The position numbers and the translations under genes were made by a program. 64,000 nt of DNA from Frigoribacterium sp. CFBP 13712. GTDB lineage: Bacteria; Actinomycetota; Actinomycetes; Actinomycetales; Microbacteriaceae. Below are positions 45,459-63,699 of this stretch, in pieces (within the stretch, counting starts at the first letter, position 1; every line of letters starts with the position of its first letter). The notes beneath the pieces were generated by a model. It saw only the letters and a program-made list of their open reading frames with translations. It was not told where the DNA came from and searched no databases. The stretch lies in the NCBI RefSeq assembly GCF_014842255.1, contig NZ_JACYVH010000005.1, positions 62,023-126,022 of the forward strand, in the 5' to 3' direction.

Positions 45459-45869
45459 TCAGCGGGGGCCGAGCTCCGCCCGGAGCGGCCAGTCCTGACC
45501 CTCGAGGATCAGCTGAGCACCCGCCCCGGTCACCCGGTTGACGACGACGGGCGCCAGCAGGTTCACCGTCATCCCCGAGGAGGCGGGGGTCGCCACGACG
45601 AGGAGCATCGCGTCGTCCGCGTCGGTCAGCTCGAGCAGCGCCGTCTGCTCGTCGGTGATGACCGGCGAGTAGTCGGTCAGGTGCACCGACGCGTCGAGCA
45701 CGAACAGCCGCACGTCGGCGGCGTCATCGGCGGCGTCGAGGACGTCGACGGCGCGGAGGGCGAAGAGTCCGACGGCGCCCTCGATCTCGTCGAGCACGAA
45801 GTCGACCTTCGGCTCGAGGCCGAACGGCGGGGCGACGAAGCGCACCGGGGTCCGCGTGATGCCGCTCAT
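45459..45869 (-). CDS. fliW: Flagellar assembly factor FliW
   Basis: 136 residues. FVAPPFGLEP, DEIEGAVGLFALRAVD, RLFVLDASVHLTDYSPVI and the diagnostic TVNLLAPVVVNRVTGAGAQLILEG follow the FliW family. FliW binds both flagellin and the translational repressor CsrA; free FliW takes CsrA off flagellin mRNA. Last gene of flgN-flgK-flgL-fliW, overlapping flgL by ATGA. The usual partner csrA is not next to it or elsewhere in the window. CsrA-type hairpins are present in the fliC, flgB and fliH leaders. Confidence 0.9.
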   Translation of the reverse strand: MSGITRTPVRFVAPPFGLEPKVDFVLDEIEGAVGLFALRAVDVLDAADDAADVRLFVLDASVHLTDYSPVITDEQTALLELTDADDAMLLVVATPASSGMTVNLLAPVVVNRVTGAGAQLILEGQDWPLRAELGPR

Positions 45870-49275: not shown

Positions 49276-50097
49276 ATGAACCGCACCGAACGCAACGCCC
49301 TGGTGGTCGAGAACCTGCCGCTCGTCGGCTACCTCGTCTCCGAGGTCTGCGCCCGCGCCACGCACCTGTCGCGCGACGACCTCGCCGGCGTCGGCGCGAT
49401 CGCGCTCGTGCAGGCGGCCGACGCCTTCGACCCGACCCTCGGGATCCCGTTCGGCGCCTACGCCCGCACCCGCATCGTCGGGGCCTTCGCCGACGACATG
49501 CGCTCGGGAGACTGGGCCAGCCGCGGCACCCGCAAGCGCATCAAGGAGACCCTGGCCACCCAGGAGGCGCTGACCGCGTCGCTGGGGAGGCGCCCGTCGG
49601 TCGACGAGCTCGCCTCGGCCCTCGGGGTCGACCGTCAGGCGGCGCAGTCCGCGCTGAGCGACGCCGGCCGCACGGTCTCGACCCTCGACGACACGATCGC
49701 CGACCACCTCTCGAGCGACCTGCCGCTGCCGGGCGACGACCTGCTCGTCGACGAGCGCAGCCGCTACCTGCGGGCCGCCGTCGAGGCCCTCCCCGAGCGC
49801 ATGCGCCTGATCATCGAGGGCGTCTACTTCGGCGACCGCACCGTCACCGAGATCGCCGACGAGCTCGGCATCACCCACAGCGCCGTCTCGCAGCAGCGCA
49901 CCGAGGCCGTCCGTCTGCTGCGCGACGGACTCGCCGCGCACTACGCCGACGACCCCGACGCCGGGTTCGAACCCGTGTCGAAGACCGCGCCCGCCCGGCG
50001 CAGCGCCTACCTGTCGCGCGTCGCGACGAACGCGGCCGTCGGCATCGCCCGCGCCCTGCGCGACCCCGAGCCCCAGGGCTTCAGCACGGCGGTCTGA
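49276..50097 (+). CDS. fliA: Flagellar sigma factor (sigma-28, FliA/WhiG type)
   Basis: 273 residues. Region 2: HLSRDDLAGVGAIALVQAADAFDPTLGIPFGAYARTRIVGAFADDMRSGDW. Region 3: GRRPSVDELASALGV. Region 4 HTH: RTVTEIADELGITHSAVSQQRTEAVRLLRDGL. This layout and its place next to fliC identify a flagellar sigma. It probably recognises the four CTAACG-N14-GTCGAnAG promoters here, but no such site precedes fliA itself. ATG 49276 has GGGAG 7 nt upstream. Confidence 0.9.
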   Translation: MNRTERNALVVENLPLVGYLVSEVCARATHLSRDDLAGVGAIALVQAADAFDPTLGIPFGAYARTRIVGAFADDMRSGDWASRGTRKRIKETLATQEALTASLGRRPSVDELASALGVDRQAAQSALSDAGRTVSTLDDTIADHLSSDLPLPGDDLLVDERSRYLRAAVEALPERMRLIIEGVYFGDRTVTEIADELGITHSAVSQQRTEAVRLLRDGLAAHYADDPDAGFEPVSKTAPARRSAYLSRVATNAAVGIARALRDPEPQGFSTAV

Positions 50098-50124: not shown

Positions 50125-50152
50125 CTAACGCGCGTCGTGAGCCGGTCGACAG
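50125..50152 (+). promoter_or_regulatory. Sigma-28-type promoter of fliC
   Basis: CTAACG, 14 nt, GTCGACAG. Predicted start near 50160, giving a leader of about 53 nt. Confidence 0.85.
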
Positions 50153-50164
50153 TAGCCGGTGTCA

Positions 50165-50178
50165 GCCCACGGATGGGC
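50165..50178 (+). promoter_or_regulatory. CsrA-type hairpin in the fliC leader
   Basis: GCCC-ACGGAT-GGGC: a perfect 4-bp stem with hexaloop ACGGAU. The GGA in the loop preceded by AC is the core of known CsrA sites. A second ACGGAGG, overlapping the Shine-Dalgarno, is at 50198-50204, the arrangement known from Bacillus hag. Confidence 0.7.
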
Positions 50179-50197: not shown

Positions 50198-50206
50198 ACG
50201 GAGGAG
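50198..50206 (+). promoter_or_regulatory. fliC Shine-Dalgarno with second ACGGA site
   Basis: ACGGAGGAG: GGAGGA is 7 nt before ATG 50213, and the ACGGA core would let CsrA block ribosome entry. Confidence 0.65.
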
Positions 50207-50212
50207 AACACC

Positions 50213-51037
50213 ATGGGTATGCAGATCAACACCAACCTCGCGGCCAACAACACCTACCGCAACCTCAACAGCACGCAGAACGACCTGTCGAAGAGCCTCG
50301 AGAAGCTCTCCAGCGGTCTTCGCATCAACCGTGCCGCTGACGACGCGGCGGGTCTCGCGATCTCCGAGGGCCTGCGCTCGCAGGTCGGCGGACTCACGGT
50401 GGCCGCACGCAACGCCCAGGACGGCATCTCGGTCGTGCAGACCGCGGAAGGCGGACTGACGGAGGTCCACTCGATCCTCCAGCGCGTCCGCGACCTCGCT
50501 GTTCAGGCCGGTAACGACTCGAACAACGCGGACGCCCGCACGGCCATCCAGACCGAGGTCACGGCCCTCGGCGAGGAACTGACCCGCATCGGCAACTCGA
50601 CCAACTTCAACGGCATCGACCTGCTCAACAGCGCCGGCAGCCTGACGTTCCAGGTCGGCGCCGGTTCGGTCGCGGAGAACGACCAGATCTCGGTCAGCCT
50701 GACCGACATCACGGCCGTCGCCACGACCGTCGCGGGTCTGACCTTCGACTCGGCCGCCAACGCCCTCGCCTCGATCGCCGAGCTCGACACGCAGATCACC
50801 GCCGTGTCGTCGGCGCGTTCCGAGCTCGGTGCCGTGCAGAACCGCTTCGAGCACTCCATCGCGTCGACCAACGTCGCGAAGGAGAACCTCACGGCGGCTC
50901 AGTCGCGCATCCGCGACGTCGACATGGCCGAGGAGATGGTCAAGTACACGCGCTCGAACGTGCTCAGCCAGGCCGGCACCGCGATGCTGGCCCAGGCGAA
51001 CCAGAGCACGCAGAGCGTCCTGTCGCTGCTCCGCTAG
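50213..51037 (+). CDS. fliC: Flagellin
   Basis: 274 residues, a minimal flagellin with D0/D1 only. The N-terminus MGMQINTNLAANNTYRNL and KLSSGLRINRAADDAAGLAISEGLRSQ and the C-terminus NVAKENLTAAQSRIRDVDMAEEMVKYTRSNVLSQAGTAMLAQANQSTQSVLSLLR are standard. The central D2/D3 is nearly absent, as in other short flagellins. Strong Shine-Dalgarno, own sigma-28 promoter, and a double hairpin after the stop. Confidence 0.97.
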   Translation: MGMQINTNLAANNTYRNLNSTQNDLSKSLEKLSSGLRINRAADDAAGLAISEGLRSQVGGLTVAARNAQDGISVVQTAEGGLTEVHSILQRVRDLAVQAGNDSNNADARTAIQTEVTALGEELTRIGNSTNFNGIDLLNSAGSLTFQVGAGSVAENDQISVSLTDITAVATTVAGLTFDSAANALASIAELDTQITAVSSARSELGAVQNRFEHSIASTNVAKENLTAAQSRIRDVDMAEEMVKYTRSNVLSQAGTAMLAQANQSTQSVLSLLR

Positions 51038-53593: not shown

Positions 53594-55156
53594 TCAGCCC
53601 CAGGGGATGACGCCGACCACGATCGCCACGGCCAGCATCACGAGCGACACGATCGCCGCACGCCACAGCACCTTCTTGTGGTGGTCGCCGAGGTTCACGT
53701 TCGCGAGGCTGACGAGCAGCAGGATCGCTGGCACCAGCGGGCTCTGCAGGTGCACCGGCTGACCGACCACCGACGCCCGCGCCATCTCGACCGGGTCGAT
53801 GCCGAACGCCGCGCCGCTCTGCGCCAGCACGGGCAGGATGCCGAAGTAGAAGGCGTCGTTGCTCATGAAGAAGGTGAGCGGCAGGCTCAGCACTCCGGTG
53901 ATCACCGCGAGGTACGGGCCCATCGAGGTGGGGATCACGTCGACCAGCCACTGCGCCATCGCGTCGACCATGCCGGTGCCGTTCAGCACGCCGATCAGCA
54001 CGCCGGCGGCGAAGACCATCGAGACGACTCCGACGATGCTCGGCGCGTGCGCCACGATCTCGGCCGACTGCTCCTTCACCCGGGGGAAGTTCGCCAGCAG
54101 CGCGATCGCCGTGCCGACCATGAACACGTAGGCGAGCGGGAACAGGTCGGCCACGAGCAGCACCATCACGGCGACGGTCAGCACGAGGTTGAACCAGATC
54201 ATCTTCGGGCGGAGCGTCGGGCGGTCGGGGTCGAGCATCGTGTCGGCCAGGGTCGCTCCGCCGGGGGTGCCGTTCTCGTTGCCGCCGTAGGCCGCCGCGC
54301 CCGCGCCGGCGCCCGCGCCAGCGCCGGCGGGGTTGTCGACCGCGCGCTCGCCGGGTGCGTCGGCGCGGCTGCCGTCGGCCCGTCCGCCCCGCACTCCGAG
54401 GGCGACCGTCGGGCTGGTGAACATCGAGACGCCGACCCCGGGGATGCCGGTGCCGCCGCCGCGCGAGGCGGTCGCGAGCTCCTGCGAGAGCGGCGACATC
54501 GCAGCCGCCGCGGCCCCGAGGCGCGAGTCGCCGATCTCGAGTGTGCCGAGGCGGCGGCGCTCGCGCAGCCCCATCAGCCATGCGAAGACGAAGACCAGCA
54601 CGAGGCCGGCGATCAGCGACGGCACGAGGGGCACGAAGATGTCGCTCGGCTGCACGCCGAGGGCCGCCGCCGCACGGACGGTCGGGCCGCCCCACGGCAC
54701 GATGTTCAGAGTCCCGTTGGCGAGACCGGCGACGCAGGTCAGCACCACGGGGCTCATGCCGAGCTTGAGATAGATGGGCAGCATGGCCGCGGTCGTCACG
54801 ATGAACGTGGTCGAGCCGTCGCCGTCGAGCGAGACCGCCCCGGCGAGCAGCGCCGTGCCGAGCACGACCTTCGCGGGGTCGTTGCCGGTCACCCGCAGGA
54901 TGAGCCGCACCAGCGGATCGAACAGCCCGACGTCGATCATCAGACCGAAGTACATGATCGCGAACATCAGCAGTGCGGCCGTCGGGGCCAGATCGCCGAT
55001 CGCCTCGATGACCATGTCGCCGATGCCGAGACCCGCGCCGGCGAAGAGCCCGAAGATGGTCGGCACCATGATCAGGGCCAGCATCGGCGACAGCTTCTTG
55101 GTCATGATCAGCGCCATGAAGGTCAGCACCATGAGGTAACCGAGTACGACGAGCAT
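53594..55156 (-). CDS. Citrate transporter (CitMHS family)
   Basis: 520 residues with about 11 membrane helices. SLDGDGSTTFIVTTAAMLPIYLKLG, LNIVPWGGPTVRAAAALG and FFMSNDAFYFGILPVLAQ are typical of CitMHS metal-citrate/proton symporters. A long Gly/Ala-rich cytoplasmic loop (about residues 220-310) interrupts the core. ATG 55156 has AAGGAG 6 nt upstream, so the longer frame start is rejected. The divergent CitA/CitB-type pair probably controls it. Confidence 0.9.
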   Translation of the reverse strand: MLVVLGYLMVLTFMALIMTKKLSPMLALIMVPTIFGLFAGAGLGIGDMVIEAIGDLAPTAALLMFAIMYFGLMIDVGLFDPLVRLILRVTGNDPAKVVLGTALLAGAVSLDGDGSTTFIVTTAAMLPIYLKLGMSPVVLTCVAGLANGTLNIVPWGGPTVRAAAALGVQPSDIFVPLVPSLIAGLVLVFVFAWLMGLRERRRLGTLEIGDSRLGAAAAAMSPLSQELATASRGGGTGIPGVGVSMFTSPTVALGVRGGRADGSRADAPGERAVDNPAGAGAGAGAGAAAYGGNENGTPGGATLADTMLDPDRPTLRPKMIWFNLVLTVAVMVLLVADLFPLAYVFMVGTAIALLANFPRVKEQSAEIVAHAPSIVGVVSMVFAAGVLIGVLNGTGMVDAMAQWLVDVIPTSMGPYLAVITGVLSLPLTFFMSNDAFYFGILPVLAQSGAAFGIDPVEMARASVVGQPVHLQSPLVPAILLLVSLANVNLGDHHKKVLWRAAIVSLVMLAVAIVVGVIPWG

Positions 55157-55323
55157 CCGAACTCCTTCGTCCGTGAGCGGCACCGTGGAGGAGCCGAGCG
55201 TGTCCGGGCACGCTAGCCGCGCCTCCTCGGTCGCGTCGCGCTTCTGCGCATTCGCCGACTATCGCGCGTTGGTCGTGTTCTGCGCGTTCTGCTCACGCGC
55301 GCGGGAGTGCGTCGCGGGGGTGG

Positions 55324-55385
55324 GGCGGGTTCGTGTCATCGGGGGCGGGTCAGCGCTGACCCGCCGCCGATGACGGGAACCCGCC
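55324..55385. repeat. 62-bp imperfect palindrome, copy 3
   Basis: Same core and arms as copies at 1001-1062 and 1918-1979, more than 53 kb away. It lies between divergent citrate transporter and sensor kinase genes. Confidence 0.85.
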
Positions 55386-55458
55386 GAACCCGCGGGCCGC
55401 AACGCGAGCGGCGTGGGCAGGGATCGCAGGAGGCGCGGGTCGCCCCGACCGCGCCCGG

Positions 55459-55464
55459 TACCCT
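55459..55464 (+). promoter_or_regulatory. -10 box of leaderless sensor kinase promoter
   Basis: TACCCT, 7 nt before GTG 55472. Confidence 0.6.
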
Positions 55465-55471
55465 GGCCGAC

Positions 55472-57406
55472 GTGACCGACGACAGCTCACGCCCGCGCTC
55501 GCGGCCCGGCGCCCGCCTCCGCCTCCGCCCCCGCCGGTTCGCCACCGAGGTGCTGCTGCTGCAGCTCGCCGTCGTCACCGCCATCGTCGTCCTCACCAGC
55601 GCCGTGTTCGCCGCGATCGCCGTGCAGCGTCTGGCCCGCGAGGCCGAGTCGACGGCGCTCGCCGTGGCGCAGAGCGTCGCCTCCGACACCGATGTGCGGG
55701 CCGAGGTCGCGGCCCTCAGCGTCGACGGCACGCCGATCGACGAGGGCGCCCTCGCCGCGGGCGACCTGCAGCGCACGGCGGTCGCGGCCCAGCTGCGCAC
55801 CGGAGCGCTCTTCGTCGTCATCACCGACGACCGCGGCGTCCGTCTGGCGCACCCCGACCCGACGCGCATCGGCGAGCGGGTCAGCACGAGCCCCGACGCG
55901 GCGCTCCGCGGGGAGGAGGTCGTCTCGTGGGAGCGCGGCACCCTCGGCGAGTCGGCCCGCGCCAAGGTGCCGATCGTCGCGCCCACCGCGGACGACCCGC
56001 GATCCGGTGCAGGAGGCGCGGGCTCGGCAGGCGGATCGGCCGACGTCCCGGGCGGGGCCGGCGCTCCGACCGGGTCAGGCGACGCCGGGTCCGCGCGCGT
56101 CGCCGACGCCGCCGACGTGGTGGGCGAGGTCAGCGTCGGCTATGCCCCCGCGCGCGTCTACGAGACGCTCGCGCGCGACAGCCTGCCCGTGATCGGCGTC
56201 GCCCTGCTCGCGCTGGCGATCGGCGTCGTCGCCTCCGTGCTCATCCGTCGGCGCCTCGACCGGCTGACCCTGGGGCTCCAGCCCGAGGAGCTCGCCGCCC
56301 TCGTGCAGAACCAGCAGGCCGTGCTCGGCGGTGTCGCCGAGGGAGTGCTCGCGGTCTCGCGCGACGGGGTGGTGACGGTCTGCAACGATCTGGCACCGCG
56401 CCTCCTCGGCCTGCCGCCCGACCCGGTGGTGGGCCGACGGGTCGACTCGCTCGAGCTGCCGGGCGTGCTCGTCGAGATGCTGGTCGGCACGTCGCCGGAT
56501 GGCCGAGGAGGCGCGGGCCGGGCCCCGCAGACCGGCCCCGGCCCCGCCGACACCACGCTGGTCGTCGGGCCTCACGTGCTGCTCGTCGACGTGCGCGCGG
56601 TCTCGCACGACGGCGTCGACCTCGGACGCGTGGCGGTGCTGCGCGACCGGACCGACGTCGAGGCGCTGACCCGCCGCCTCGACGCGGTGGGCGCGATGAC
56701 CACCGCTCTGCGCGCCCAGCGGCACGAGTTCGCCAACCGGCTGCACGCCGTGTCCGGGCTGCTCGAGCTCGGTCGCACCGAGCAGGCGCGCGGCTACCTC
56801 GCCGACGTGCTCGACCACGGTCCGCTGCGCTACCCGGTCGCCCACGCGGATCGGCTGACCGAGCCGTACCTGCAGGCGTTCTTGGGGGCGAAGGGGGTCG
56901 AGGCCGCCGAGCGCGGGGTGCTGCTGAAGCTCGGCCCCGAGACGCTCGTGTCGGGCACGGTCGTCGAGGCCGGCGACGTCACCACGGTGCTCGGCAACCT
57001 GGTCGACAACGCCGTGCGCGCCGCGGTCGCCGGCGACGTCAGCCCCGCGTGGATCGAGGTCGAGGTGCTCGACGACGGCACCGACCTGCACCTGTCGGTG
57101 ATGGACTCGGGCCGCGGCGTCGCCGACGCGGACGCGCTGTTCGAGCGGGCGGCGGGCGGTGCGAGCGGCGCCGAGGCCGGTGGCGGGGCAGCGGCGCTCC
57201 CGCCCGACGGTGCGGTCGACCCGGACGACCCCTCGCGCGTGCACGGGCTCGGCTTCGGTCTGCCGCTCTCGCGCGACATCGCCCGGCGGCGCGGCGGCGA
57301 CGTCTGGCTCGGCTCGCCCGGCGGAGACGGCCACGGTGCCGTGTTCTGCGCGCGTCTGGCCGACGCCGTCCAGCCGCCCGCGCCTCCTGAGAGGATCGAC
57401 CCGTGA
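55472..57406 (+). CDS. CitA/DcuS-type sensor histidine kinase
   Basis: 644 residues: one membrane helix (about 22-48), an outside PDC-type sensor (about 50-245), a second helix (about 246-266), a cytoplasmic PAS domain (about 280-400), then the kinase with RAQRHEFANRLHAVSG (His418) and ATP-binding NLVDNAVRAA, DSGRGV and GFGLPLSRDIA. CitA-type kinases sense citrate or C4-dicarboxylates. The sensor domain contains a Gly/Ala-rich insertion coded by a 14-mer copy (about 56010). GTG start; the stop overlaps the regulator (GTGA). Confidence 0.9.
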   Translation: MTDDSSRPRSRPGARLRLRPRRFATEVLLLQLAVVTAIVVLTSAVFAAIAVQRLAREAESTALAVAQSVASDTDVRAEVAALSVDGTPIDEGALAAGDLQRTAVAAQLRTGALFVVITDDRGVRLAHPDPTRIGERVSTSPDAALRGEEVVSWERGTLGESARAKVPIVAPTADDPRSGAGGAGSAGGSADVPGGAGAPTGSGDAGSARVADAADVVGEVSVGYAPARVYETLARDSLPVIGVALLALAIGVVASVLIRRRLDRLTLGLQPEELAALVQNQQAVLGGVAEGVLAVSRDGVVTVCNDLAPRLLGLPPDPVVGRRVDSLELPGVLVEMLVGTSPDGRGGAGRAPQTGPGPADTTLVVGPHVLLVDVRAVSHDGVDLGRVAVLRDRTDVEALTRRLDAVGAMTTALRAQRHEFANRLHAVSGLLELGRTEQARGYLADVLDHGPLRYPVAHADRLTEPYLQAFLGAKGVEAAERGVLLKLGPETLVSGTVVEAGDVTTVLGNLVDNAVRAAVAGDVSPAWIEVEVLDDGTDLHLSVMDSGRGVADADALFERAAGGASGAEAGGGAAALPPDGAVDPDDPSRVHGLGFGLPLSRDIARRRGGDVWLGSPGGDGHGAVFCARLADAVQPPAPPERIDP

Positions 57407-58185
57407 CCACCCCCGACCTGACCGTGCTCGTCGTCGACGACGACTTCTACGTGGCCGAGCTGCACCGGCGGCAGGTCGACGAGGTGCCGGGGTTCCGCGC
57501 GCTGGCACCCGTCGGAACGGTCGCCGAGATGCGCCGCGTGCTCGCCGAGACCCCGGTCGACCTGCTGCTGCTCGACGTGCACCTGCCCGACGGGAGCGGC
57601 CTCGACCTGCTGCGCGAGGTCGACGTCGACGCGTTCGTGCTCAGCGCGGCCTCCGACGGGGAGACGGTGCGGCGCGCGCTGCGGCGCGGGGTCGTCGGCT
57701 ACCTGATCAAGCCGTTCGGTTCGGGCGTGCTCGCCGACCGGCTGCGGGCCTATCAGCGCTATCGCAACGTGCTCGACGACCGCGGGAGCGTCGACCAGGA
57801 GGCCCTCGAGCGCGCACTCCGCATCCTGCACTCGGGCGACGCGGCGAAGGCGGCGTCGCCGTCGCGCTCGGCGACGGAGCAGTCGGTGCTCGAGCAGTTC
57901 GCGGTGCCGGGTGCGGGTGCGGGTGCCGGTGGGGGTGGGGGTGCGGGTGCTGGTGGGGGTGCTGCGGGCGCCGGTGCCGGTGCCGGTGCGGGTTCCGGTG
58001 CGGGTGCGGGCGCCGGTGGGGGCGCGGACGGAGAGCTCTCCGCCGCCGACGTCGCTGCTCGGGTCGGTGTGTCGAGGGCGACCGCGCAGCGGTACCTCGC
58101 CGCGCTCGCCGCCGACGGCCTCGTCACGATGAGGCTGAGCTACGGAGCGACCGGCCGCCCCGAGCACCGCTACTCCCGCGCCTGA
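57403..58185 (+). CDS. CitB/DcuR-type response regulator
   Basis: 260 residues. Receiver: DDD at 12-14, phosphoacceptor Asp58 (LLLLDVHLPDGSG) and Lys103 (LIKPF). Residues 170-208 are a pure Gly/Ala linker. The C-terminal HTH (LSAADVAARVGVSRATAQRYLAALAADGLV) is the CitB-type DNA-binding domain. Coupled to the kinase by GTGA. The probable target is the citrate transporter promoter between 55157 and 55471. Confidence 0.9.
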   Translation: MTTPDLTVLVVDDDFYVAELHRRQVDEVPGFRALAPVGTVAEMRRVLAETPVDLLLLDVHLPDGSGLDLLREVDVDAFVLSAASDGETVRRALRRGVVGYLIKPFGSGVLADRLRAYQRYRNVLDDRGSVDQEALERALRILHSGDAAKAASPSRSATEQSVLEQFAVPGAGAGAGGGGGAGAGGGAAGAGAGAGAGSGAGAGAGGGADGELSAADVAARVGVSRATAQRYLAALAADGLVTMRLSYGATGRPEHRYSRA

Positions 58186-58189
58186 CGCG

Positions 58190-58640
58190 CGCCGCGCCTC
58201 CTCCGCTCGCCGGCTCGTCGAGGTGACGCAAACGGGGTGGTCGCGGCCTCGGAGGGGCCCGTTCGCGTCACCTCGATGCTGCTGCTGCGCGTCTGACGTG
58301 CGCCGCGCCTCCTCGGCTCGCCTCCGTCCCCCCCCCCGCTCGTCGAGGTGACGCAAAGGGGGTGGTCGCGGCCTCGGAGGGGCCCGCTTGCGTCACTTCG
58401 ATGGTGCTGCTCCGCGTCTGACGCTCGCCGCGCCTCCCCGGCTCGCCTCCCCCCTCCCCCGGCTCGTCGAAGTGACGCAAAGGGGGTGGCCGCGAGCTCG
58501 GAGGGGCCCGCTTGCGTCACTTCGATGCTGCTGCTGCGCGTCTGAGGTGCGCCGCGCCTCCCCGGCTCGCCCCCCCGCTCGTCGAGGTGACGCAAAGGGG
58601 GTGGTCGCGCCCCCGAAGGGGCCCGTTCGCGTCACTTCGA
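58190..58640. repeat. Tandem array of four hairpin repeats
   Basis: Units of about 114-123 bp. The hairpins lie at about 58216-58276, 58341-58402, 58465-58526 and 58578-58640. Each joins TCGA(G/A)GTGACGCAAA to (G/T)CGTCAC(C/T)TCGA through a GGTCGCGGCCTCGG-type loop. Spacers carry GCGCGTCTGA..GCCGCGCCTCC, copies of the sequence around the response-regulator stop, so the array seems to have grown from the gene end. No gene in 58186-58668. Confidence 0.85.
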
Positions 58641-58668
58641 CGCACCCCCCCCCAGTACGGGGTGGGGG

Positions 58669-58696
58669 CTTACGGCGCAGCTCCGGACGTCGATAG
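58669..58696 (+). promoter_or_regulatory. Sigma-28-type promoter of flgB operon
   Basis: CTTACG, 14 nt, GTCGATAG. Predicted start near 58704, placing the first CsrA-type hairpin at the 5' end of the mRNA. Confidence 0.85.
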
Positions 58697-58704
58697 AGCG
58701 ACGT

Positions 58705-58719
58705 GAGCACGGATCGCTC
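58705..58719 (+). promoter_or_regulatory. CsrA-type hairpin 1 in the flgB leader
   Basis: GAGC-ACGGATC-GCTC. The stem can extend outward by a T-G wobble and a G-C pair. It begins 16 nt after the first base of the -10 element, the same distance as in fliH. Confidence 0.65.
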
Positions 58720-58727
58720 GCCCACCC

Positions 58728-58742
58728 GGCCACGGATCGGCC
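58728..58742 (+). promoter_or_regulatory. CsrA-type hairpin 2 in the flgB leader
   Basis: GGCC-ACGGATC-GGCC: a different stem, identical loop. Eight nucleotides separate it from hairpin 1. Confidence 0.65.
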
Positions 58743-58751
58743 CCCGCCCGA

Positions 58752-58883
58752 CGCACGCAGCAGCACGCACGCAGCACGCAGCACGCAGCACGCAACACGC
58801 AGCAGCACGCAGCACGCAGCACACAGCACGCAGCAGCAGCAGCAGCACGCAGCACGCAGCACGCACGCAGCAGCAGCACGCAC
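58752..58883. repeat. CACGCAG/CAGCAG microsatellite in the flgB leader
   Basis: About 130 bp of CACGCAG, CACGCAGCAG and CAG units between the hairpins and the flgB start. Slipped-strand length changes here would alter the leader length of the whole operon. Confidence 0.85.
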
Positions 58884-58912
58884 AGGGCACCTCGAACCTC
58901 CCCGGGACGGCC

Positions 58913-59257
58913 ATGCCACTCGAATCCGTGACGCAAGCGGCGCTGCAGAGCGCCCTCGACGGTCTGTCGCTGCGCCAGAAGTCGATCGCGAACAACATCG
59001 CCAACGTGAACACGCCCGGCTACCAGGCCAAGCGCGTGCAGTTCGAGGAGGCGCTGGGCCGGTCGGTCGCGGAGGGCGGCGGGGCGGTCCAGGCGACCAC
59101 GGCCCGCTCGCTCGAGCCGACGCGCACCGACGGCAGCAACGTGAACCTCGACACCGAGACGCTGTCGAACGTCGACACCGTGCTGCGGTACCAGTTCGCG
59201 ACGCAGGCGATGAACTCCGAGCTGACGGCCGTGCGCGCCGCGTTCAGGACGAGCTGA
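58913..59257 (+). CDS. flgB: Flagellar proximal rod protein FlgB
   Basis: 114 residues. LSLRQKSIANNIANVNTPGYQAKRVQFEEAL is the rod-protein N-terminal motif, and LRYQFATQAMNSELTAVRAAFR is the C-terminal helix. ATG 58913 is chosen; a longer frame would only translate the microsatellite. First gene of flgB-flgC-fliE-fliF-fliG; TGATG overlap with flgC. Confidence 0.93.
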   Translation: MPLESVTQAALQSALDGLSLRQKSIANNIANVNTPGYQAKRVQFEEALGRSVAEGGGAVQATTARSLEPTRTDGSNVNLDTETLSNVDTVLRYQFATQAMNSELTAVRAAFRTS

Positions 59258-59652
59258 TGACCGCCTTCGACGCGATCGGCATCGCGAGCACCGGCCTGAC
59301 CGTGCACCGCAAGTGGCTCGACGCCGTCTCGGACAACATCGCCAACGCGAACACGGTCAAGTCGATGGACGACACCGCGTTCCAGGCCCGCTACATCGAG
59401 GTGCAGGAGGGCGACGGCACCTCGGGCGTCTTCGTCAGAGCCGACCGCTATGGCAGCGAGGCCGGGCGCGTCACGTACTCGCCCGACCACCCGCTCGCCG
59501 ACGCCGAGGGCTACGTGCGCATGCCCGACATCGACCTCGGCGCCCAGATGGGCGACCTCATCATGGCGCAGCGCGGCTACCAGGCCAACGCCGCTGTCGT
59601 CGACCGTGCCAAGACGGCCTACGAGGCCGCACTCCAGATCGGACGTGGCTGA
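59257..59652 (+). CDS. flgC: Flagellar proximal rod protein FlgC
   Basis: 131 residues. AIGIASTGLTVHRKWLDAVSDNIANANT is the rod motif; VYSPDHP-like GRVTYSPDHPLADAEGYVRMPDIDL and MAQRGYQANAAVVDRAKTAYEAALQIG are FlgC-typical. Coupled on both sides by overlapping start and stop codons. Confidence 0.94.
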   Translation: MTAFDAIGIASTGLTVHRKWLDAVSDNIANANTVKSMDDTAFQARYIEVQEGDGTSGVFVRADRYGSEAGRVTYSPDHPLADAEGYVRMPDIDLGAQMGDLIMAQRGYQANAAVVDRAKTAYEAALQIGRG

Positions 59653-60020
59653 TGCCCCTCTCGGCGATCCAGGCTCTCGGAGCCGTCCAACCGTCCGGCT
59701 ACGCCGACGCCGCCTCGCTGCTGCAGGGGGCCGGTGGCGCGTCGGGTGCCGCGGGCGCTCTCGACGCGACCGGACGAGGAGGCGCGACCAGCGCCTCCGG
59801 GGCGACCTTCGGCGCGTCGATGGCCGGTGCCGTCGAGGGCCTCCAGCAGATGCAGGGTGAGGCCAAGACCCTCGCCGTGAAGGCCGTGACCGGCGATCTG
59901 ACCGACATCCACGATGCGACCATCGCGGCGACCCGCGCCCAGGTCACCCTCGAGCTCGTCAGCGCCGTCCGCAACAAGGGCGTCGACGCCTTCAACGAGA
60001 TCATGAGGATGCAGGCCTGA
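59652..60020 (+). CDS. fliE: Flagellar hook-basal body protein FliE
   Basis: 122 residues. The C-terminus (DLTDIHDATIAATRAQVTLELVSAVRNKGVDAFNEIMRMQ) is the diagnostic FliE helix. The N-terminal half is Gly/Ala/Ser-rich and contains a copy of the AGGAGGCGCG motif (59778-59787). FliE couples the MS ring to the rod. Overlaps flgC and fliF. Confidence 0.92.
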   Translation: MPLSAIQALGAVQPSGYADAASLLQGAGGASGAAGALDATGRGGATSASGATFGASMAGAVEGLQQMQGEAKTLAVKAVTGDLTDIHDATIAATRAQVTLELVSAVRNKGVDAFNEIMRMQA

Positions 60021-61693
60021 TGCCCACCGCCGTCAAGAACTCGCTCGACCGGATGCGCGCGACCCTCGCGGGCTTCTCGATCGCGCAGAAGACCATCGCG
60101 GTCATCCTGCTCGCCGCCCTCGTGCTCGGCGTCGTCGCGCTGTCCGCGTGGCTGTCGAAGCCGACCTACACGCCGCTGTTCAGCGGCGTCGACCCGGCCG
60201 ACGCGAGCGCCATCGTCGAGCAGCTGCAGGCCGACGGGGTGCCGTACGAGCTGACCGCCGGCGGCAACACGATCCTCGTGCCCGAGGAGCACGTCTACCA
60301 GGAGCGCCTCACCGCCGCGGCCGCCGGACTGCCCTCGACCGCCGGCACCGGCGGCTACACGCTGCTCGACACGATGGGCGTGACATCGTCGGAGTTCCAG
60401 CAGGACGTCACCTACAAGCGCGCCATCGAGGGCGAGCTCGCCAACACCATCAAGGCGATGGAGGGCGTGAAGAACGCGACCGTGCAGCTCGCCATCCCCG
60501 AGGAGACCGTGTTCGTCGCCGAGCAGCGCGACCCCACGGCGTCGGTGTTCGTCGAGACGCAGGCGGGGGTCTCGCTCACCACGAAGCAGGTGCAGGCGAT
60601 CGTCAACCTGACCAGCGCCTCCGTCGAGGGCATGACCCCGACCGGCGTGGCCGTCACCGACTCGACAGGCACGGTGCTCTCCGAGGTCGGCACCGGGGCG
60701 ACGGGAGGAGGCGCGGGCGAGGCCGGCGAGTACGAGACGAAGGTGCAGACGGCCGTGCAGACCATGCTCGACAAGGTCGTCGGCGTCGGCAACTCGTCGG
60801 TCGTGGTCGCCGCTCAGCTGGACCAGAACTCGGGCACGCGCGTCACCGAGTCGTTCACCGAGCCCGAGAGCGGACCCCTCGCGCTGAACGAGTCGAGCAC
60901 CACCGAGCAGTACGGCCCGGACGGCGCCGGCACCGGCACCACCGGGGTGCTCGGCCCCGACAACATCGCCGTGCCCGCGGGCGGCGACGGCGAGGCCGCG
61001 ACGGCCGACGGCGCCGCGGGCGACGGGTACGTCAACGAGTCGGCGACGAAGAACAACGCGGTCGACAAGGTCACCGAGACGATGAGCGTGCCGTCGGGCA
61101 CGGTGGCCCGCCAGACGGTGTCCGTCGCGCTGAACGCGACGGCCGCGCAGGGCGTCAACATGCAGAGCATCCGCGACCTGGTCGACAGCGCGGCCGGGAT
61201 CGACGGCGCCCGCGGCGACACCGTCGACGTGGCCATGGTCGACTTCGACACCTCGGCCGCCGCCGCCGCGCAGGAGGCGCTCGCCGCCGCCGACGCCGCC
61301 GCCGCGACGGAGGCGATGTGGTCGACGATCCGCACCGCGAGCATCGTCGGGTTCGTCGCGCTCGCGGCCATCGTCGCGCTCATCGTCTTCGCCCGTCGGA
61401 GCCGCCGTCAGGCCCGGGAGGACGTCGACCTCGGCGAGCTCGCGTCCGCGAACGCAGCCCAGACCTGGGATGCGACCATGCGTCTCGACCTGGACGCCGC
61501 CTCCGGACGCTCCATGCTCGGCGCAGACGACACGGCGACGCAGATGCTGCCCACGGTCGACGCCCCCGAGCCGTCGCCAGAGGTGCTGTCGGCCGAGCGC
61601 CGCCGCGCCGAGGTGGACGCGCTCGCCGAACGCGACCCGGCCAAGACGGCCGAGCTGCTGCGCGGCCTGATGGACCAGCGGAGCGGACTGTGA
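60020..61693 (+). CDS. fliF: Flagellar MS-ring protein FliF
   Basis: 557 residues. N-terminal helix (about 22-43), the YscJ-like domain (SKPTYTPLFSGVDPADASAIVEQLQADGVPYELT; TYKRAIEGELANTIKAMEGVKNATVQLAIPEETVF), a C-terminal helix (about 435-455) and a cytoplasmic tail ending in DPAKTAELLRGLMDQRSGL, which binds FliG. Another 14-mer-like copy (60706) encodes a GAGE insertion. Overlaps fliG by GTGA. Confidence 0.95.
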   Translation: MPTAVKNSLDRMRATLAGFSIAQKTIAVILLAALVLGVVALSAWLSKPTYTPLFSGVDPADASAIVEQLQADGVPYELTAGGNTILVPEEHVYQERLTAAAAGLPSTAGTGGYTLLDTMGVTSSEFQQDVTYKRAIEGELANTIKAMEGVKNATVQLAIPEETVFVAEQRDPTASVFVETQAGVSLTTKQVQAIVNLTSASVEGMTPTGVAVTDSTGTVLSEVGTGATGGGAGEAGEYETKVQTAVQTMLDKVVGVGNSSVVVAAQLDQNSGTRVTESFTEPESGPLALNESSTTEQYGPDGAGTGTTGVLGPDNIAVPAGGDGEAATADGAAGDGYVNESATKNNAVDKVTETMSVPSGTVARQTVSVALNATAAQGVNMQSIRDLVDSAAGIDGARGDTVDVAMVDFDTSAAAAAQEALAAADAAAATEAMWSTIRTASIVGFVALAAIVALIVFARRSRRQAREDVDLGELASANAAQTWDATMRLDLDAASGRSMLGADDTATQMLPTVDAPEPSPEVLSAERRRAEVDALAERDPAKTAELLRGLMDQRSGL

Positions 61694-62739
61694 CCGACCT
61701 CGTCGTGCCCTTCGCCGCCACCCCGCAGGCGCCGACCGCCCTGACGGGGCCGCAGAAGGTCGCCGTCATCCTGATGCAGATGGAGCAGAGCCGCGCCGCG
61801 ACCGTCATGCAGCAGTTCAGCGAGGACGAGGCGGCGGAGATCACGACGGAGATCGTGCGGATGCGCCGGGTCGACGCCGCCGTCGCCGAGTCGACCGTGG
61901 CCGAGTTCCACGAGCTGAGCGTGTCGGGTCAGCACCAGCCGCGCGGCGGACACGACGTCGCGATCGGTCTGCTCGAGGCATCGTTCGGGTCGGAGCGCGC
62001 GGCCGGCGTCATGGAGCGGCTCGCGTCGAACATGGCCCGCAAGACGTTCGAGTTCCTCGACGAGGCCGACCCCGGTCAGGTCGTCGCTCTGCTCGACGGC
62101 GAACTGCCGCAGACCATCGCCCTCGTGCTCGCGCATGTGCGTCCGCCCCAGGCGTCCGCCGTGCTCGCCGGGCTCGACCTCGACGTCCGAGCCGACGTCG
62201 CCCAGGCGATCGCCACCATGGGCACCGCCACGCCCGAGGCCGTCGGGATCGTCGCGGCGACGCTCAAGATCCGGGCCGGGGCCGTCGTGGCTCCGCGCGA
62301 CCAGATCGAGGTCGTCGGCGGCATCCAGCCCCTCGTCGAGATCATCAACCGCAGCGACAGCGCGACCGAGCGGGCGCTGCTCGACGGTCTCGACGCCCGC
62401 GACCCCGAGCTGGCCGAGGAGGTCAGGTCGCGGATGCTCACCTTCGAGGACATCGTCCGACTCGAGACGCGCGACATCCAGCAGGTGCTGCGCGGCATCG
62501 ACGCGGCCGTGCTCGCCCTGGCGATGAAGGGCGCGCCGTCGGCCGTGACCGAGGTCATCCGCGGCAACGTGTCGGCCCGCAACGCCGAGCTGCTCGACGA
62601 CGAGCTGGCCTCGCTCGGACCGGTGCGCCGGTCGCAGGTCGAGGAGGCGCGGGCCGAGGTCGTCCGCGCCATCCGCGAACTCGAGGCGCTCGGCTCGATC
62701 ACCGTGCACCGCGCTGACGACGACGCCCTGGTCGAGTAG
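61690..62739 (+). CDS. fliG: Flagellar motor switch protein FliG
   Basis: 349 residues. LTGPQKVAVILMQMEQSRAATVMQQFSEDE starts the N domain; GELPQTIALVLAHV is the middle-domain EHPQ motif with Leu for His; FEDIVRLETRDIQQVLRGID is the C-terminal charged torque helix. Starts at GTG 61690, overlapping the fliF stop. It forms the rotor track for the stator. Confidence 0.95.
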   Translation: MTDLVVPFAATPQAPTALTGPQKVAVILMQMEQSRAATVMQQFSEDEAAEITTEIVRMRRVDAAVAESTVAEFHELSVSGQHQPRGGHDVAIGLLEASFGSERAAGVMERLASNMARKTFEFLDEADPGQVVALLDGELPQTIALVLAHVRPPQASAVLAGLDLDVRADVAQAIATMGTATPEAVGIVAATLKIRAGAVVAPRDQIEVVGGIQPLVEIINRSDSATERALLDGLDARDPELAEEVRSRMLTFEDIVRLETRDIQQVLRGIDAAVLALAMKGAPSAVTEVIRGNVSARNAELLDDELASLGPVRRSQVEEARAEVVRAIRELEALGSITVHRADDDALVE

Positions 62740-62752
62740 CCCGGCCACCCAC

Positions 62753-62774
62753 CGCGGCCCCCCTTCGGGGCAGC
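62753..62774 (+). terminator. Possible weak hairpin between fliG and fliH
   Basis: GCCCC-CCTTC-GGGGC, 16 nt past the fliG stop and just before the fliH promoter. Weak; it may reduce rather than stop read-through. Confidence 0.4.
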
Positions 62775-62776
62775 TC

Positions 62777-62804
62777 CTAACGCCGGCCCGCCCCCGGTCG
62801 AGAG
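62777..62804 (+). promoter_or_regulatory. Sigma-28-type promoter of fliH-fliI
   Basis: CTAACG, 14 nt, GTCGAGAG. Internal to the flagellar cluster, directly after fliG. Confidence 0.82.
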
Positions 62805-62812
62805 TCGCAGCT

Positions 62813-62827
62813 GAGCACGGATCGCTC
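62813..62827 (+). promoter_or_regulatory. CsrA-type hairpin 1 in the fliH leader
   Basis: GAGC-ACGGATC-GCTC, with an extra T-A pair at the base where flgB has a T-G wobble. Starts 16 nt after the first base of the -10 element. Confidence 0.65.
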
Positions 62828-62837
62828 ACCTCACCCC

Positions 62838-62852
62838 GGCCACGGATCGGCC
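62838..62852 (+). promoter_or_regulatory. CsrA-type hairpin 2 in the fliH leader
   Basis: GGCC-ACGGATC-GGCC with an extra C-G pair at the base. Ten nucleotides after hairpin 1. Confidence 0.65.
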
Positions 62853-62880
62853 GTCGTCCTCGAACGCCGAACGGCCCGTG

Positions 62881-63699
62881 ATGCTCGATCCCGTGATGAA
62901 CCCCCCGGCCTCCGCGCCGGGCTCCGTCGCGCGTGTCGTGTATCCGACCATCGCCGGACCGGGGTCCGACCGCGCCGCCGCCCGCGACGCCGACGACGTG
63001 CGCGCCGAGGCCCGGGGCCACGCCGCCGGGTACGCCGCGGGTCTCCGCGCCGCCGAGCTCGAACTCGCCGCGCGCCGTGCCGCCCTCGAGGCCGAGCACG
63101 CCGAGCTGCACGAGCGGCTCATGGCGCACGGCATCGCCGCGGCGGACATCCTGGTCACGGCAGCGAGGGCGCTGGACGCCCGCGTGGTCCAGTCGGTCTC
63201 CGACGCCGAGGAGGTGCTGGTCGCCACCGCATTCGACCTCGCGGAGGCGGTGGTCGGCTACGAACTCCGCGCCTCCGAGCCCTCGGCGGACGCGCCCGCG
63301 GCGGACGCGCCCGCGGCGGACGCGCCCGCGGCGGACGACCCGTCGGCGGACGAGCCGTCGGTGGACGAGCCCGCGACCCCCGGAGACCCCGATCCCCGCG
63401 CCGGACGCACCGCCCGGGCCGCCGTCGCGCGCGCCCTCGCCGGAGCGGACGGGAGCGTCGTGACCACCCTGCGGCTGCACCCTCTCGATCTGGCGCTCCT
63501 AAACGAGTCGACCCGTGCCTCCTCGGCTCCGGGGGTCGTCTTCGCCGCGGATCCGTCGCTCGGACGGGGCGACGCCGAGGCCGATCTGCCGGTCGGGCTG
63601 ATCGACGCCCGTCTCGACACGGCGCTCGCCCGCGCGCGACAGGCCCTGCTGGGCGCGCCCGCGGACACCCCGCCGTCCACGACCGGAGCGACCTCGTGA
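62881..63699 (+). CDS. fliH: FliH-like flagellar export ATPase regulator
   Basis: 272 residues. The N-terminal coiled-coil (RAEARGHAAGYAAGLRAAELELAARRAALEAEHAELHERL) has FliH-type Gly/Ala spacing. The C-terminal DAEADLPVGLIDARLDTALARARQAL matches the FliH end. A tandem coded repeat (ADAPA)4 lies between (about residues 137-160). It holds FliI at the export gate. ATG 62881 has no strong Shine-Dalgarno, which is odd for this cluster. Confidence 0.85.
   Translation: MLDPVMNPPASAPGSVARVVYPTIAGPGSDRAAARDADDVRAEARGHAAGYAAGLRAAELELAARRAALEAEHAELHERLMAHGIAAADILVTAARALDARVVQSVSDAEEVLVATAFDLAEAVVGYELRASEPSADAPAADAPAADAPAADDPSADEPSVDEPATPGDPDPRAGRTARAAVARALAGADGSVVTTLRLHPLDLALLNESTRASSAPGVVFAADPSLGRGDAEADLPVGLIDARLDTALARARQALLGAPADTPPSTTGATS

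Follow-up and report, generated by a model that had tools for sequence, protein, structure and literature searches.

RNAs of the CsrB/RsmZ type are free RNAs with many sites. Among flagellar mRNAs, the E. coli flhDC transcript is bound by CsrA at two sites near its 5′ end and is thereby protected from RNase E (reviewed in PMC7652899), and the C. jejuni flaA mRNA contains adjacent GGA hexaloops 21 nt apart, with ∼18 nt given as the optimal distance (PMC4894983). In B. subtilis, CsrA, FliW, and flagellin form a switch at hag. For the Actinobacteria, it was noted in 2008 that csrA has flagellar genes as neighbors in Kineococcus, Nocardioides, Acidothermus, and Leifsonia and that the Kineococcus flagellin gene has a hag-like CsrA site, the second site of the hag plan (PMC2587704). 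The same article describes the regulation of the Kineococcus motility island as not fully discernible and the flagellated Actinobacteria sequenced at that time as being without FlgM. Here we describe a pair of short hairpins in the leaders of flgB and fliH in a 64,000-nt stretch of Frigoribacterium sp. CFBP 13712 (contig NZ_JACYVH010000005.1, positions 62,023 to 126,022; referred to as the window), which is probably an RNA element, not described before, that controls flagellum assembly. Judged from sequence, its identity as a CsrA-type leader is well supported. A preliminary description had already called the element new for an actinobacterium; this stands for the flgB/fliH leaders, for which no account of such kind was found in the open-access literature searched, but not for csrA and a hag-like site in flagellated actinobacteria.

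Direct reading confirmed that both leaders carry two hairpins with identical ACGGATC loops (the promoters, leader features, flgB, and fliH lie on the plus strand). At flgB, hairpin 1 (H1) reads GAGC-ACGGATC-GCTC (58705–58719) and hairpin 2 (H2) GGCC-ACGGATC-GGCC (58728–58742); the fliH leader repeats both (62813–62827 and 62838–62852). These assignments agree with the leaders of relatives. Each of the four short loops contains A-N-GGA, and the GGA-to-GGA distance is 23 and 25 nt in the two leaders, a spacing that a single dimer could bridge. The changed pair below the H1 stem is present as claimed (T58704-G58720 at flgB, T62812-A62828 at fliH), and together with G58703-C58721 it allows the flgB stem to be extended to 6 bp. 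The first gene 3′ of the first element is flgB, encoding a rod protein (58913–59257; PF00460, with homologues in relatives), followed by flgC, fliF, and fliG; the second element precedes fliH of the export apparatus (62881–63699; PF02108, 28.2 bits, cut-off 24.1).

Both pairs are located directly downstream of promoter-like boxes, CTTACG (58669–58674) and GTCGATAG (58689–58696) at flgB and CTAACG (62777–62782) and GTCGAGAG (62797–62804) at fliH, with alike boxes upstream of the element in relatives. We take these promoters (58669–58696 and 62777–62804) to be FliA-like from their likeness to the sigma-28 consensus; alike boxes before the flagellin gene (50125–50152), next to a sigma-70-family gene (49276–50097), are a further basis for this label. 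In both leaders H1 begins 16 nt after the start of the −10-like box, as had been stated before, and the earlier placement of the hairpins at the very 5′ end of the mRNA would fit this arrangement. In the 3.16-Mb genome, the double site ACGGATCG-N6-36-ACGGATC occurs exactly twice, namely in the flgB and fliH leaders, and a reversed control pattern gave no match. The ACGGATC 7-mer alone is not enriched in the window (14 occurrences, 15.6 expected), nor are matches to GGCCACGGATCGGCC with up to three mismatches in excess (12 versus 13.8 expected). Single-motif scans were dropped as too noisy, because A-N-GGA hairpins and ACGGATC alone are frequent in this GC-rich genome.

The loops are conserved in relatives, as the preliminary description would require. 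A first set of relatives (the named set) comprised 56 loci, made up of the window plus 55 contigs from Frigoribacterium, Curtobacterium, Leifsonia, Microterricola, and a Microbacteriaceae isolate. A script demanding an A.GGAT loop pattern found the element at flgB in 54 of them; one of the two exceptions is a contig without flgB, the other a leader with the loop 1 sequence ACGGAAC, which this pattern misses. The 4-bp stem of H1 is invariant in all 54 leaders and that of H2 in all except two, both from Leifsonia, in which the last H2 loop base differs as well. Within the required A.GGAT, the N position is changed in three H1 and 15 H2 loops. The distance between the GGA motifs is 22–26 nt in these relatives and 21–28 nt across the Microbacteriaceae.

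The element is present in all 95 flgB leaders of flagellated Microbacteriaceae, although H1 is altered in four of them and lost in one. By script, tandem A-N-GGA hairpins were found upstream of flgB in 91 of these 95 genomes. Inspection by eye of the four dropped leaders revealed a lost H1 in L188, GAGCC-AGGA-GGCTC in L192, and GAGC-AGGATC-GCTC in L194 and L196. Among the 91, the H1 loop of L174 has six bases and the H2 loops of L185, L193, and L197 have eight; an A-N-GGA hairpin loop is present in 90 H1 and 88 H2, from a script that demanded A.GGA. A covariance model built from close relatives, whose training set overlaps some Frigoribacterium loci among the 95, recovered 94 leaders at E < 0.01, the remaining one being L188 (E = 0.013, H2 only). 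To further CsrA-positive loci, we applied a strict test that asked for two hairpins upstream of flgB, 15–40 nt apart, each with A-N-GGA or A-GGA in the loop and a stem of 4 bp or more in which G-U pairs were accepted. It was passed by 34 of 44 such loci, including 32 of the 42 outside the Microbacteriaceae, compared to three of 2200 dinucleotide shuffles and none of 146 other stretches of the same loci; one pass (L259) is doubtful by eye. At the family level, the element was found in ten of 14 other families with FlgB, in two of them (f29 and f38) weakly. Beyond what had been described, many families of the class share the flgB element, and among the loci read the fliH copy is seen in Frigoribacterium alone.

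A search for csrA, proposed in the preliminary description, identified the gene in the source genome (84.9 bits, cut-off 27) at C5:148501, 22.5 kb beyond the window and shortly after flhA. Its product contains both RNA-contact residues, L4 and R44, which are marked as critical in the review PMC7652899. The presence of csrA and the conservation of the loops support the earlier assignment of A-N-GGA as a CsrA-type core. We had also considered csrA as part of the fliH operon; this was dropped, since predicted minus-strand genes (73371–74937 in window-extended coordinates), the first of which matches YitT, intervene between flgE and the run FlbD ... FlhA ... csrA. Pfam supports the FlgE-type, FlbD, and FlhA genes in the region towards csrA; the frame preceding csrA, taken for flhF, gave no Pfam match. 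A match to fliW, the CsrA antagonist family, is encoded within the window on the minus strand (45471–45746; PF02623, 68.1 bits, profile positions 29–122).

Among 299 Microbacteriaceae genomes, 95 carry csrA, and the FlgB query matches 96, the same 95 and one genome without csrA (G290), whose sole FlgB match is weak (E = 7e-4). FliW was found in 76 of 80 selected CsrA-positive genomes; the remaining four also yielded no FlgB. In a sample of the class, csrA is present in 58 of 393 genomes, and FlgB was found in 44 of 52 CsrA-positive genomes searched, the FlgB search outside the Microbacteriaceae having covered the CsrA-positive genomes. Since the flgB element matches the CsrA core and tracks csrA, it may represent a directly testable control point for the basal-body operon. 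CsrA, until now suspected in this phylum of repressing flagellin, would then become a candidate for coordinating early with late assembly.

The flagellin leader follows a different plan. In the window, it carries the hairpin GCCC-ACGGAT-GGGC (50165–50178), resembling the upstream CsrA-type site of hag, and ACGGA over the Shine-Dalgarno sequence (50198–50202), resembling the second hag site; the flagellin ATG is at 50213. From 30 flagellin loci, we used the 26 with an identified start and excluded four. An A-N-GGA hairpin with a stem of at least 3 bp between −75 and −25, typically GCCC-ACGGA(T/C)-GGGC, is present in 24 of the 26 leaders (shuffles: 71/1040), and with stems of at least 4 bp in 22 (shuffles: 29/1040). 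A-N-GGA lies on the Shine-Dalgarno sequence in 25 of 26 flagellin leaders, but in the Shine-Dalgarno window of only 22 of 95 flgB leaders. The flgB element is therefore not of the hag type. Likeness to the B. subtilis system extends to the presence of csrA and fliW and to the actinobacterial flagellin leaders, whereas the flgB leaders have two upstream hairpins instead of a conserved Shine-Dalgarno site.

The nearest functional model, by analogy, is the E. coli flhDC leader, where an early flagellar transcript likewise has two CsrA-type sites close to its 5′ end. In contrast to flhDC, the genes controlled here would be rod and export genes rather than a master regulator, in another phylum, and the sites form a tight hairpin pair that recurs across families; the 5′-end position is inferred and a stabilization only proposed. 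C. jejuni shares paired GGA loops in flaA and an association of CsrA with basal-body mRNAs such as flgI, which co-purify with the protein, but its flaG, flaB, and flgI sites are near the Shine-Dalgarno sequence (PMC4894983). A table of that paper lists 1.6-fold for flgB and, in one column, 4.8-fold for fliH (values taken without their column heads). CsrB and RsmZ resemble the element in their repeated GGA hairpins that bind CsrA (for CsrB, PMC7652899); they differ in that here two sites lie inside an mRNA leader without an Rfam match. Rfam searches of window positions 58600–63000 gave three unrelated sub-threshold matches at E up to 5, and nothing at the gathering score in six relatives' loci.

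Taken together, we favor, with somewhat better than even confidence, a conserved CsrA-bound 5′-leader element of the actinobacterial basal-body operon, with activation as the preferred outcome. Binding of the leader hairpins by CsrA is very likely; that its effect on flgB and fliH is positive comes slightly short of an even chance. Activation is preferred because the sites adjoin the promoter rather than the ribosome site. The element consists of two short hairpins with A-N-GGA loops, which probably lie at the mRNA 5′ end or just a few nucleotides from it. They would fold once transcribed and then be held by CsrA, most likely by one dimer bridging both loops. Held in this way, they could shut the 5′ end against decay, as at E. 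coli flhDC. In the Microbacteriaceae, CsrA might in addition stop H2 from pairing with the first codons and occluding the ribosome site. CsrA would then favor the synthesis of basal body and export apparatus (flgB, fliH) and repress flagellin by the hag-like leader, its free level being set by FliW and flagellin.

A CsrA that binds both loops might instead repress flgB and fliH, by blocking ribosome loading from upstream or by promoting early termination, and free CsrA would then shut basal body and filament together. The flagellin genes of the same genomes have the repressive hag layout, and the end of H2 is 23–55 nt from the start codon in 90 of 91 family leaders, both of which would suit such a mechanism. 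However, repression would not lead one to expect the rarity of A-N-GGA in the Shine-Dalgarno window of flgB given above, nor that H2 stands anywhere between 21 and 170 nt from the start codon while the promoter box keeps a nearly fixed distance: 9 nt separate the −10-like box from H1 in 78 of 78 rows for the named set and 59 of 85 for the family. We regard repression as unlikely. Because this distance is nearly fixed, a transcription start downstream of the hairpins is disfavored as well. Six leaders from one Microbacteriaceae genus (L186, L189, L190, L191, L193, and L197) have no −10 motif by script and retain the hairpins, which suggests a promoter switch at flgB in this genus.

It is still less probable that abundant flgB and fliH mRNAs serve as a sponge that titrates CsrA and tunes flagellin translation with little effect on their own genes. 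C. jejuni flaA mRNA does titrate CsrA (PMC4894983), and no Rfam family reached threshold in a scan limited to the window stretch and six loci, but each mRNA would offer two sites only. Moreover, where a transcript starts at a new internal promoter, it has an element of its own, which control in cis explains more readily.

If the repeats were DNA sites bound by a transcription factor directly 3′ of the FliA-type promoter, and the hairpins incidental, this would account for the strongly conserved stem sequences and for the nearly fixed distance to the −10-like box. For a DNA operator, sequence should be kept without compensatory pairing, whereas both-sided stem changes were found, few of them within the family. 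In the family, the four core pairs of H1 are paired in all 90 seven-base loops, with substitutions of A-T for G-C at pair 2 (twice) and of A-T to G-C (three times) or G-T (twice) at pair 3. A fitted alignment of 87 leaders has 99.8% of its cells paired and two pairs with both-sided changes, which is reached by four of 500 shuffles. Across families, the H2 stem changes as a unit (GGCC/GGCC, CGCC/GGCG, GCCG/CGGC, GCCA/TGGC), although these stems were chosen by a script that required pairing. The inter-repeat spacing also drifts (21–28 nt), and the hairpins persist in the six family leaders without a −10 motif, so that we consider DNA sites very improbable. At the extreme 5′ end, a hairpin alone can be enough to slow 5′-dependent decay, and stem sequences are conserved beyond the need of CsrA, but protein-free stabilizers would need neither A-N-GGA in both loops across families nor a flagellin-leader twin at the hag position, and an RNA-binding protein other than CsrA is at odds with csrA in all 95 family genomes where the element was read, which leaves this alternative equally improbable.

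Several observations nevertheless weigh against a CsrA-bound RNA element. Ten of the 44 further loci fail the strict test; by eye, eight of them have shorter or altered versions (L227, L228, L235, L237, L238, L240, L241, and L254) and two (L232 and L262) nothing recognizable. The family genomes are related, and the counts are not independent events. A control alignment slid by +3 likewise gives two both-sided pairs, most core pairs show no covariation within the family, and covariation in the lower stem is weak (pair 5 paired in 50 of 90, 43.2 expected). The sequence of the 4-bp core stems is conserved far beyond what CsrA binding alone should demand. The hairpin loops have 7 nt, and extra loop bases can lower RsmE affinity (PMC7652899).

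Folding gave a mixed picture. The isolated 15-mers fold as drawn, with −3.4 and −5.5 kcal/mol. In RNA ending just past H2, the flgB hairpins H1 and H2 have predicted probabilities of 0.94 and 0.42, and those of fliH 1.00 and 0.99; once the gene start is included, the values drop to 0.76 and 0.08 for flgB and both fall below 0.001 for fliH. In the family, the hairpins dominate in nascent RNA up to the end of H2, with a probability exceeding 0.5 for H1 in 82 and for H2 in 85 of 87 leaders. As a control for a switch, everything 3′ of H2 was shuffled and values were compared by genus (30 genera); the shuffling partly restored the hairpins. In the full leader, the probability of H2 is 0.14 for real versus 0.34 for shuffled sequences (lower in 26 of 30 genera), and that of H1 0.34 versus 0.49 (lower in 23). 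The ribosome site is freely accessible at 0.35 versus 0.42 (lower in 22). For the fliH copies (14 distinct leaders), H2 has 0.01 real versus 0.22 shuffled, and H1 hardly differs (0.55 versus 0.62). Loop 2 is predicted to pair most with flgB positions +6 to +13. A candidate competing partner is CGAATCCGTG in flgB codons 3–6 (58921–58930), which with one bulge could pair with CACGGATCG in either loop; near the start of fliH, CGATCCCGTG (62886–62895) shows loop complementarity of the same kind.

Codon usage at the flgB start was examined in the same respect. GAA or GAT is found at codon 4 in 84 of 95 flgB genes, compared to GAT in 10 of 157 Asp and GAA in 14 of 157 Glu codons in the rest of flgB (30 loci), and TCC in 65 of 95 starts compared to 59 of 270 Ser codons in the rest of flgB (30 loci). 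A loop C is associated with TCCGTG (52 of 74 versus 3 of 13; Fisher p = 0.003, uncorrected for relatedness). In L106–L200, codons 4–6 of flgB have a strong bias to GA(A/T)-TC(C/G)-GT(G/C), which the remainder of the gene does not share in 30 of these loci.

On the other side, both the hairpins in the complete leader and the proposed competition are called into question by a number of results. The minimum-energy structures of the 90- and 91-nt leader stretches do not contain the hairpins, and in full leaders up to the first codons the probability exceeds 0.5 for H1 in only 28 and for H2 in only 5 of 87 cases. Forcing the hairpins increased access to the ribosome site not clearly above shuffles (p = 0.061). 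In other families, real and shuffled values are 0.21 and 0.29 for H2 and 0.47 and 0.49 for H1, with competing pairing not clearly above shuffles, and the copy at a FliJ-like gene, described below, behaves in the opposite way, with weak nascent hairpins (0.06 and 0.29) and an H2 that does form once the leader is complete (0.97). GC avoidance in early codons is common on general grounds, and part of the flgB early-codon pattern reflects protein sequence. The idea that loop complementarity to CGANTCCGTG where flgB and fliH begin forms the other, conserved half of a switch was demoted to a hypothesis at the level of the Microbacteriaceae, because 39 of the 95 family members have no TCCGTG at the flgB start, only 38 of 95 contain the full CGANTCCGTG, and the complementarity is lacking in many leaders of other families.

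A more far-reaching version of CsrA-dependent activation, which we consider doubtful, would be a reciprocal switch, in which free CsrA opens and protects the flgB and fliH mRNAs by locking their 5′ hairpins, so that these do not pair with the first codons, and at once closes the flagellin mRNA by the hag-type leader. FliW and cytoplasmic flagellin would set the balance, and a backlog of flagellin would lead to more export-competent bases. The element would then be an old leader of flagellated Actinobacteria, copied with new promoters upon operon splitting.

The extra copies suggest that the same RNA was re-attached when transcripts were split. Among 27 Frigoribacterium loci tried, 24 have the fliH element, many of the 24 being the same species from two collections. 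Two of the three misses (L006 and L021) end 20 nt past fliG, and the third (L008) ends short of the site, which its genome (G015) does hold ∼1.6 kb past fliG. In the Curtobacterium, Leifsonia, and Microterricola loci, a frame directly follows fliG without such a leader; therefore, the fliH copy probably arose together with a new promoter. A second model was scored in 80 genomes with the stricter filters used for more than 40 genomes and gave 52 rows at E < 1e-5: 47 at flgB, four at fliH (Frigoribacterium group), and one after a FliI-type ATPase gene in another genus (G077). Three weaker matches (E = 4e-5 to 1.4e-4; L280–L282) were set aside, as they are not at flgB and look coding-like by eye.

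The G077 copy (L279:1772–1919 with the frame that follows) has a CTAACG...CCGATAG promoter and is followed by ATGACGGATTCCGTG, the start of a short frame beginning with MTDSV, whose stop overlaps the start of the FliJ-like gene (Pfam FliJ 23.4 bits, below the cut-off of 28.4). This element with its own promoter before the FliJ-like gene appears to mark a second attachment event, in a second lineage that gained an internal promoter. The short MTDSV frame could also be a translationally coupled leader peptide.

The flgB leader of the source strain is unusually long, owing to a GCACGCA-type tandem repeat of 18 copies of a 7-bp unit (58753–58882) between H2 and the flgB start, giving an H2-to-start distance of ∼170 nt, where the remaining 53 leaders of the named set have 21–57 nt. 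Just 5′ of the flgB promoter, at 58195–58640, lie 3.7 copies of a 124–125-bp repeat, each with inverted GTGACGC...GCGTCAC arms as judged by eye. Between fliS and flgB within the flagellar cluster (53594–58185), Pfam matches indicate a CitMHS-type transporter on the minus strand as well as a Cache-domain sensor kinase and a response regulator.

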